This document shows positions 7,473 through 11,584 of a stretch of 15,418 nt of DNA, in pieces. The stretch's first letter is position 1. Every line of letters starts with the position of its first letter. The notes below the pieces were generated by a model that saw only the letters and a program-made list of their open reading frames with translations, was not told the DNA's origin and searched no databases. Source of the DNA: Candidatus Poribacteria bacterium (GTDB lineage Bacteria; Poribacteria; DTPJ01; WJIO01); contig WJIO01000413.1 of the NCBI GenBank assembly GCA_014730235.1, forward strand, positions 1 to 15,418. The letters run 5' to 3'. A program made the translations under genes and the position numbers.

Positions 7473-7521
7473 TATCTGAGTCAAGCTACTAAATTTTAGT
7501 TAGTGGTCGTTTAATTAATTT

Positions 7522-7640
7522 GGTTCTTCCGGGTTCAGTTTGGTAAATATAAGAAACTTCTTTATGCTGTCATTACGCCTTCGCAGGAATGACAAGCTGA
7601 GGGAATTTTCAATTATAACCACACTGAGCCCGGAAAAGCC
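7522..7640. mobile_element. MITE-like element copy A (119 bp)
   Basis: A short non-coding element with 23-bp imperfect terminal inverted repeats (7522-7544 and 7618-7640, 19 of 23 matching; outer end GGTTCTTCCGGG). The 73-bp interior holds a hairpin core (TGTCATT 7568-7574 / AATGACA 7588-7594). The interior is identical to copy B apart from one extra T in B. No clear target-site duplication flanks it. Its right end stops one base before the stop codon of the methyltransferase gene (7642-7644), so the methyltransferase transcript runs straight into it and could use its hairpin as a 3' end. The GGYTYTTCCG terminus recalls ISL3-family insertion-sequence ends (from memory), suggesting trans-mobilisation. 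Confidence 0.8.
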
Positions 7641-7641
7641 A

Positions 7642-8418
7642 TTATGTTTTCTGGCTTATAATTACAAACGAGCCACCCACATATGAATTTTCATGATTCC
7701 AGCTACCCGGAGGAAATTCTTTATCGGGCTTTCTGTTTCGGGATAAATCCTCAACTTCTATTATAGTTAATCCTACCTCAATAAGCCTATTGAAAATATC
7801 ATCCATATAATGACGAAATTCAATTGCACCATCTTCCCGAAGATCTAAACTTTCGCAATATGGTTTATATATCTGGTAACCTTCACCATCCCATTTTATA
7901 AAATGAATAGCAGGTTGACCAAAATCTACTCGGAATAATCCGTCTCTCCTTAATACTCTGGACACCTCAGAATACACCTTTTGAATATCTGAAACATAGC
8001 ATATAGCTGTTCCATATACCAGGTCAAAAGAATCATCATCCAGACATGAAAGATCTTGCATATCTCCCTGTATTGTCTTTATTTTGTATCCATAATGTTT
8101 TGCCGCTTTTTGATCTGCATCCAGTTGCCCTTGAGCTATATCAACTACTGTAACATTGGCACCAAGTGAACCAAAAACAGCCGATTGCTGACCACCTCCG
8201 GCGGCGAGGCATAGAACATCTTTACCTTCCATATCCGTAAGAATGCTTTTTGGAGTTATTACAGATATTTTATCGGGCGCATTATCCAATTCTCCCCGGG
8301 AATATTTTCGGATTATATTAACATCCAGGTCTAACCAGGGTATTGTATAGCCACATCTTTCTTTTACCATTCTTTCCCAGTGTTTTTTATTTGCTACCAC
8401 TTCTTCGGGCTTATCCAT
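7642..8418 (-). CDS. Class I SAM-dependent methyltransferase, unknown substrate
   Basis: The 258-residue cytoplasmic protein has a Rossmann methyltransferase core. Motif I is VLCLAAGGG (68-76), the ribose-binding acidic residue is D93 (TVVDI), the adenine-contact region is IQGDMQDLS (116-124), and motif IV-like FDLVYGTAICYVSDI (131-145) precedes an EVSRVLRRDG helix (151-160). The N-terminus (HWERMVKERCGYTIPWLDLD) and a C-terminal about 90-residue part probably form the substrate cap. GGAG lies eight bases before the ATG. The gene sits alone between two near-identical mobile elements. It starts 18 bases from copy B and stops one base from copy A, and a terminator-like repeat separates it from recA and Dabb, so its promoter must lie in or beside copy B. 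Whether it methylates a small molecule or a protein is not visible. Confidence 0.88.
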   Translation of the reverse strand: MDKPEEVVANKKHWERMVKERCGYTIPWLDLDVNIIRKYSRGELDNAPDKISVITPKSILTDMEGKDVLCLAAGGGQQSAVFGSLGANVTVVDIAQGQLDADQKAAKHYGYKIKTIQGDMQDLSCLDDDSFDLVYGTAICYVSDIQKVYSEVSRVLRRDGLFRVDFGQPAIHFIKWDGEGYQIYKPYCESLDLREDGAIEFRHYMDDIFNRLIEVGLTIIEVEDLSRNRKPDKEFPPGSWNHENSYVGGSFVIISQKT

Positions 8419-8436
8419 TATTCTTTCTCCATTTTT

Positions 8437-8557
8437 GGCTTTTTTGGGTTCAGTTTGGTAAATATAAGAAACTTCTTTATGCTGTCATTACTGCCTTCGC
8501 AGGAATGACAAGCTGAGGGAATTTTCAATTATAACCAAACTGAACCCGGAAAAGTCC
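8437..8557. mobile_element. MITE-like element copy B (about 120 bp)
   Basis: Second copy in the same orientation as copy A. Terminal inverted repeats at 8437-8459 and 8534-8556 match at 20 of 23 positions, and the hairpin core is TGTCATT (8483-8489) / AATGACA (8504-8510) with a CTGC/GCAG inner stem. Flanks CCATTTTT (8429-8436) and CTATTTTT (8557-8564) agree at 7 of 8 positions, a probable AT-rich target duplication. The right end is ambiguous by one base (8556 or 8557). It occupies nearly all of the space upstream of the methyltransferase, and on the minus strand it holds ATGACA (8483-8488), 16 bases, TATATT (8461-8466), a weak candidate promoter aimed at that gene. Confidence 0.82.
8461..8488 (-). 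promoter_or_regulatory. Candidate methyltransferase promoter inside copy B
   Basis: Minus-strand ATGACA (8483-8488) and TATATT (8461-8466) with a 16-base spacer would start transcription near 8454, about 36 bases before the methyltransferase ATG. The -35 box is weak. The call rests mainly on the lack of other space between the terminator-like repeat and the gene. A second -10-like TATAAT lies at 8528-8533 without a good -35 box. Confidence 0.3.
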
Positions 8558-8570
8558 TATTTTTTTAGAA

Positions 8571-8633
8571 ATTTATCAACAAAACAGGCTTTACCCTGTG
8601 AATCACAGGGTAAAGCCTGTTTTGTTGATAAAT
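8571..8633. terminator. 63-nt perfect inverted repeat, probable bidirectional terminator
   Basis: Arms of 31 bases (8571-8601 and 8603-8633) are perfectly complementary around a single A at 8602. The inner stem is GC-richer (CAGGCTTTACCCTGTGA), flanked by an A-rich side ACAAAA and a mirrored TTTTGT side, so either strand would give a stable hairpin followed by a T-rich tract. It lies 15 bases beyond the Dabb stop codon (8649), which suits the 3' end of the recA-Dabb transcript, and it would insulate the methyltransferase. The stem is unusually long for a simple intrinsic terminator. Confidence 0.7.
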
Positions 8634-8648
8634 CTATATTATAACCTA

Positions 8649-8948
8649 TTAATTTTCATAGTCAAAAACTAATACGTCTTCAACAATTGGTCGGACAAGG
8701 TTTTGGGCAAGCTTCTGGTGTCCCGGATGCGGAACATAGATATCACGACTGGCGGTATCCTTGAATCTTACAATAAATGCAAAGTCAAATCCAGAATTTT
8801 TATTTTCCGGGCTGTTATTGTATCCCCCTGAAACTTGTAATATTCCTGGTATTATAGACTTGAGTTTTTCCAGTCCATCCATCATATCATTAATTTGATC
8901 TTTGGTTGTATCTTTCTTCAATTTAAGAAGCACAATATGTTCTATCAT
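8649..8948 (-). CDS. Dabb-domain (stress-responsive A/B barrel) protein
   Basis: A 99-residue small protein with the dimeric alpha-beta-barrel (Dabb) pattern: N-terminal MIEHIVLLKLK, a helical segment with a Pro-Gly turn (SIIPGI, about 31-36), and FAFIVRFKDTASRDIYVPHPGHQKL (57-81) with the conserved Y..HP.H motif. The motif is characteristic, but the family has no single reaction and includes plant stress proteins and small-molecule cyclases or decarboxylases. It follows recA by 32 bases with AGGAG ten bases before the ATG, so it is probably cotranscribed with recA, in the place where recX often lies. A link to DNA repair is not implied by the domain. Confidence 0.88.
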   Translation of the reverse strand: MIEHIVLLKLKKDTTKDQINDMMDGLEKLKSIIPGILQVSGGYNNSPENKNSGFDFAFIVRFKDTASRDIYVPHPGHQKLAQNLVRPIVEDVLVFDYEN

Positions 8949-11327: not shown

Positions 11328-11566
11328 GGCTTTTCCGATCTGGGTGTGGAAATATAAAAGATACAGAGAATTCTAAAAAATCTCTAAAACCAATGTTTAT
11401 AAGAATTAAGCATGAAGAAACAGATGAAAATGCTCAAAAAATATAGTTCTATGTCATTCCTGCTTCAAGCTTTTTGAAAAAGCTTGAGCGAAAAGGAATA
11501 AGAGTTTCGCAGGAATGACAAGCTGAGAGGATTTTCAATTATAAACCCACTAAACCCGGAAGAACC
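11328..11566. mobile_element. MITE-like element copy C (239 bp, diverged, longer)
   Basis: The ends match copies A and B: left GGCTTTTCCG (11328-11350 region), right end reading GGTTCTTCCGGG on the minus strand (11544-11566), the same as the left end of copy A. The right third (AATGACAAGCTGAG through AATTATAA) is nearly identical to A and B. The terminal repeats pair at only about 13 of 23 positions, so this copy is older. The interior is about 120 bp longer and includes a perfect 12-bp inverted repeat TGTCATTCCTGC / GCAGGAATGACA (11452-11463, 11509-11520) enclosing a second hairpin. The flanking ATATTTT duplication marks it as a transposed unit. No coding capacity is visible. Confidence 0.8.
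11465..11487. repeat. Nested hairpin inside copy C
   Basis: TCAAGCTTTTT (11465-11475), one G, AAAAAGCTTGA (11477-11487): a perfect 11-bp inverted repeat set inside the 12-bp outer repeat of copy C. It is absent from copies A and B. Confidence 0.7.
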
Positions 11567-11584
11567 ATATTTTTATCTTTGGAA

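Follow-up and report, generated by a model that had tools for sequence, protein, structure and literature searches.

A methyltransferase gene between two insertions of an abundant MITE in a Candidatus Poribacteria genome

A gene standing alone between two direct copies of a mobile element raises the question whether the pair acts on it as a cassette, or whether the arrangement is what an abundant element produces anyway. Such a gene, encoding a methyltransferase (MTase), is found in the window analyzed here, a stretch of 15,418 nucleotides that makes up contig C360 in full, within a 5.53-Mb Candidatus Poribacteria assembly of 451 contigs. Our analysis makes it very probable that the MTase lies between two ordinary insertions of an abundant MITE, the bracket being a by-product of element density and not the mark of a cassette that is moved or deleted.

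The locus and its two MITE copies

Read along the minus strand, the locus comprises recA, a Dabb-domain protein, MITE copy B, the MTase, MITE copy A and a VOC/glyoxalase-domain protein, followed by a D-serine dehydratase/3-hydroxyaspartate-aldolase-like enzyme and an FGGY carbohydrate kinase (Table 1). The original prediction, which had been made from the sequence alone, placed copy A one base beyond the MTase stop codon and copy B 18 bases before its start codon, and both the ORF call and the profile HMM reproduced these coordinates: only base 7641 separates copy A from the stop codon (7642-7644), and bases 8419-8436 lie between copy B and the start codon. The two copies were also correctly recognized as direct-repeat mobile elements (HMM E about 1e-37) sharing one orientation, both being on the plus strand by HMM. 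To call them near-identical was too strong, since their alignment of 119-120 nt contains 7 mismatches and one gap (94% identity).

Table 1. Coordinates of the features at the MTase locus; positions refer to the window.
Feature	Position	Strand	Evidence
MTase (SAM-dependent class I, Methyltransf_11, 258 aa)	7642-8418	-	Pfam PF08241, E 2.9e-16; alignment with orthologs
MITE copy A, full length, ends GGTTCTTCCGGG...CCCGGAAAAGCC	7522-7640	+	Profile HMM, model 1-120, E 4.9e-37
MITE copy B, full length, ends GGCTTTTTTGGG...CCCGGAAAAGTC	8437-8555/8556	+	Profile HMM, E 9.1e-37
Third MITE copy, right half alone recognizable	~11505-11566 (element region 11450-11568)	+	Profile HMM
Probable 8-bp target duplication of A, left half, ATTAATTT	7514-7521	.	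6/8 vs 7641-7648
Probable target duplication of A, right half, ATTATGTT, includes MTase stop codon	7641-7648	.	6/8 vs 7514-7521
Probable target duplication of B, left half, CCATTTTT	8429-8436	.	7/8 vs 8557-8564
Probable target duplication of B, right half, CTATTTTT	8557-8564	.	7/8 vs 8429-8436
Promoter-like pair ATGACA-16-TATATT inside B, toward MTase	8461-8488	-	10/12 to sigma-70 consensus
Promoter-like pair ATGACA-16-TATATT inside A, toward VOC gene	7546-7573	-	Consensus match only

Over 108 nt, A and B are 97% identical by BLAST, and the full-length alignment shows an almost identical core with diverged ends. Searches with both copies scored the best 40 candidates, among which any closer copy should be found; A and B were reciprocal best matches in this set, followed by copies of 94% identity for B and 92% for A. 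Being reciprocal best matches, they cannot count as two entirely independent insertions, and their closeness suggests either that an element hopped locally or that neighbors underwent gene conversion, the identical core with its diverged ends being compatible with conversion without proving it. Counted post hoc in a set of about 1.0 Mb with 99 full copies, three of the eight full-copy pairs less than 1.5 kb apart included a nearest-relative match, compared with about 2.5% of random pairs, while the overall mean-rank test was not significant (p 0.11). Elsewhere (G000:C305:4495-5740, L223), three full MITEs are gathered within 1.25 kb, the outer two being reciprocal best matches even though they face opposite ways, which again hints at local hopping or conversion. 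The family could serve for the study of local transposition and gene conversion between adjoining copies.

The right end of copy B is abutted by a near-perfect palindrome with 36-bp arms and a 1-nt spacer (8566-8638; RNA fold z about -14 to -15). It is possibly a terminator after the Dabb gene, with no clear T-run following the palindrome on the strand of that gene. A repeat family was considered and rejected as the palindrome is unique in the genome, and an Rfam search of the window returned no match.

An abundant MITE family and the frequency of bracketed genes

From the alignment of 30 copies with their flanks, the element is about 120 bp long, its GGYTCTTCCGGG... ends forming the terminal inverted repeats GGYTCTTCCGGGTTCAGTGTGG and CCACACTGAACCCGGAAGAACC. 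It folds as one long imperfect hairpin (single-strand fold z of A and B between -6 and -11), and ORF calls gave no ORF of useful length within it. Exact 8-bp AT-rich duplications flank 20 of 49 full copies, compared with 0.2% of mismatched flank pairs in the sample. By its length, ends and duplications, the element is a MITE, and it constitutes a high-copy, non-autonomous family with AT-rich 8-bp target duplications. A 16-base half-element pattern, with two mismatches allowed, found 324 matches in the 5.53-Mb genome versus 13 for the reversed control, while the 83 other genomes of the phylum gave no DNA match to the element; MTase homologues, in contrast, are present in many of those genomes and in other phyla. 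In the literature searched, no paper named both Poribacteria and 'miniature inverted-repeat'.

The profile HMM detected 122 elements in 689 kb of sampled contigs, one per 5.6 kb, a density that is somewhat inflated since part of the contigs had been chosen for holding copies. The family is mostly intergenic, with the element midpoint inside an ORF in only 5 of the 122 cases, and full copies commonly lie 0-20 bp from the end of a gene. Hotspot clustering was rejected, since neighboring elements within 1 kb of each other formed 14 pairs, no more than the 15.9 expected. The third copy in the window has a different, longer central hairpin with a AAGCTTTTTGAAAAAGCTT-like inner repeat; as it matches the family by its right half only, replacement of the hairpin core may occur within the family.

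At this density, a gene between two elements is to be expected. Within the 689-kb sample, elements occupy 104 of 470 intergenic gaps (22%) and flank 27 of 442 genes on both sides, compared with 21.6 genes if gaps fill independently, an expectation computed inside the same sample as the counts. In 15 of the 27 cases the bracketing pair shares one orientation. A bracket as tight as the one around the MTase recurs at the gene C246:30731-32368, which has same-orientation copies at 15 and 3 bp, and the gene C271:15080-16003 is bracketed at 30 and 28 bp. Since about one gene in 16 is bracketed likewise, as the abundance of the MITE leads one to expect, the arrangement around the MTase is ordinary for this genome; the observation itself was correct, but its reading as a special, recombination-prone island is unsupported, considering these counts, the presence of another equally tight bracket and the single MTase copy. 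More generally, where a mobile repeat occurs every few kilobases, neat two-copy bracketing is expected many times and gives no evidence for a cassette.

The second MTase of this family in the genome, about 40-44% identical, is also situated between two same-orientation MITEs (L083:1117-4014; G000:C68), there with another gene between the MTase and each MITE. The genes adjoining this second MTase have repeated GYWPMDEGSG/VLYLPFDEGSG-like starts in common.

The flanks of A and B point to separate insertions. The original prediction credited copy B with a probable target duplication of its own, which stands at 7/8 (CCATTTTT/CTATTTTT), while it missed a weaker one at copy A (6/8; ATTAATTT/ATTATGTT). 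In the control of mismatched flank pairs, about 10% reach at least 6/8 and 2.3% reach 7 or 8, so that the duplication at A is only suggestive. That neither the outer flanks (ATTAATTT/CTATTTTT) nor the inner ones (ATTATGTT/CCATTTTT) pair as a shared duplication had been seen correctly.

A course of events can be proposed from these data. A transposase working in trans, most probably one of the ISL3 type, would have placed each MITE at an AT-rich intergenic site, with an 8-bp duplication on insertion. Copy A would have landed at the 3' end of the MTase gene in a target that probably took in the stop codon and preserved it in the duplication, and copy B just upstream of the MTase ribosome-binding site; we infer the order of the insertion events at the locus. 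Since the duplication half would hold the stop codon, the insertion of A at the gene end would have left the MTase intact, and in the alignment the protein ends where its homologues end. The insertions of A and B were probably related to each other by a local hop or gene conversion.

Promoter-like sequences, recombination and the origin of the methyltransferase

Compatible with two ordinary insertions, though itself unlikely, is a regulatory co-option of copy B, in which B would act as the MTase promoter and its insertion would be maintained for expression. The promoter-like pair within B points at the MTase, its -10 box lying about 43 bp ahead of the start codon, and both A and B carry a T variant that improves the -10 box over the commoner TATCTT and is uncommon in the family. 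A precedent exists in MITEAba12 from Acinetobacter, an element of similar size with outward promoters, from one of which transcripts were detected (PMC6382973). Against co-option, promoter-like sites are frequent in the region (10 found versus 5.5 expected), and a stronger match, TTGACT-16-TATAAT, is situated upstream, where the Dabb gene ends (8638-8665). Furthermore, an orientation bias of the MITEs relative to co-directional genes was not convincing (18 versus 12).

Homologous recombination between A and B, deleting or duplicating the MTase at an appreciable rate, would make the gene the cassette that the original prediction envisaged; we regard this as very unlikely. The direct repeats lie 915 bp apart and are identical without interruption over about 45 nt on either side of one gap, and the combination of an almost identical core with diverged ends could reflect mutual exchange. 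In addition, the MTase is patchy across phyla, and the closest relative compared (G001), the only one with an order in common with the window genome, has no clear ortholog, the best match being a remote one of 31%. Against this stand the many genes of the genome that are bracketed likewise and the assembly, which shows neither a second MTase copy nor a single-element variant; the genome holds one MTase copy at 100% and a 44% paralogue on another contig, but no duplicate. The repeats are also short and only 94% identical. Direct repeats can in principle always recombine, but nothing singles out the MTase.

The context of the gene was further searched in relatives by tblastn on their loci around the MTase, recA, the VOC gene and the aldolase-like gene. 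Within the loci examined from 39 relatives, no MTase ortholog adjoins recA or the VOC gene, and a conserved recA-VOC context for the MTase was thus not found. In the closest relative, recA and the VOC gene are located on separate contigs with other neighbors.

The MTase is full length compared with its homologues. Its Pfam matches are limited to small-molecule-type Methyltransf families and Ubie_methyltran, and with Methyltransf_11 and Methyltransf_25 domains it resembles UbiE/Methyltransf_11-type SAM methyltransferases. The closest PDB sequence is 8k76, an S-adenosylmethionine-dependent methyltransferase, and the protein does not reach the curated cut-off of any functionally named NCBIfam family. 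An orphan DNA methyltransferase, or part of a restriction-modification system, was rejected because Pfam shows no DNA methyltransferase domain. Homologues (38-66%) were found in Chloroflexota, WOR-3, Hydrogenedentota, Spirochaetota, archaea and other Poribacteria. Since the MTase groups in the tree with the Chloroflexota and WOR-3 homologues (97/88), apart from the main poribacterial clade, its phylogeny suggests lateral acquisition.

This placement would also fit a joint arrival of the MTase and the elements aboard a mobile island, a scenario that we consider highly improbable. The element sits throughout this genome and was found in none of the 83 others. Moreover, by its codon usage the MTase does not stand out from the genome (63rd percentile of distance), although its GC3 is somewhat low (0.27 versus 0.37, sd 0.06), and its neighbors are recA and household enzymes. 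Equally improbable is the combined case in which A and B co-evolve by gene conversion, B serves as the promoter of a laterally acquired MTase and the pair works as an occasional deletion switch.

Least credible of all is a composite MITE transposon of the TIME-COMP kind, in which a transposase would use the outer left end of A and the outer right end of B: both are recognizable termini of the same family, and Tn3-derived MITE pairs can move genes in this way in Pseudomonas (PMC4133298), but the outer flanks agree at only 4/8, which is chance level, agreement is better between the two flanks of each copy, and no other copy of the A-MTase-B unit exists in the genome. With each copy having its own imperfect target duplication and none in common, no composite insertion took place, as the original prediction had already judged true composite transposition to be unsupported.

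A probable ISL3 link and known systems

The MITE most resembles ISL3-type elements, which makes mobilization by ISL3 likely. Three ISL3 transposase fragments are present in the genome, all at contig ends (L112, L113 and L114 on C342, C236 and C391), as is expected if a multicopy element broke the assembly. Two of these genes lead at their 3' side into CCGGATGAACC and CCCGGATGAATCC, respectively, sequences that resemble the MITE terminus CCCGGAAGAACC; the left ends are unassembled. Only transposase fragments were found, and no intact autonomous ISL3 partner with matching ends on both sides. Among other candidate partners, IS1595 was rejected as no transposase match occurs in the genome, and an IS256-type element as its one match contains an internal stop and no matching end lies beside the gene.

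The likeness to the ISL3 family is seen in Tn7546 (PMC9782665), which also generates an 8-bp AT-rich target duplication (AAAATAAG) and whose end GGGTCTTCGGA shares the GG.TCTTC type with the MITE end GGYTCTTCCGG. With TIME-COMP (PMC4133298), the locus has in common that two MITEs flank a gene segment; unlike that system, the A-MTase-B arrangement lacks a target duplication common to its outer ends, occurs at no other location and shows no sign of moving. Resemblance is also evident to MITEAba12 of the Moraxellaceae (PMC6382973), a non-autonomous element of about 113 bp with terminal inverted repeats, whose 9-bp (sometimes 8-bp) AT-rich target duplications accompany about 40% of copies, similar to the MITE described here. 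Both elements have outward sigma-70-like promoter sequences in common, in our case by consensus match only. MITEAba12 differs in being related to ISAba12, in its sequence and in its far lower copy number per genome, whereas the present element occurs in hundreds of copies and forms one long imperfect hairpin.
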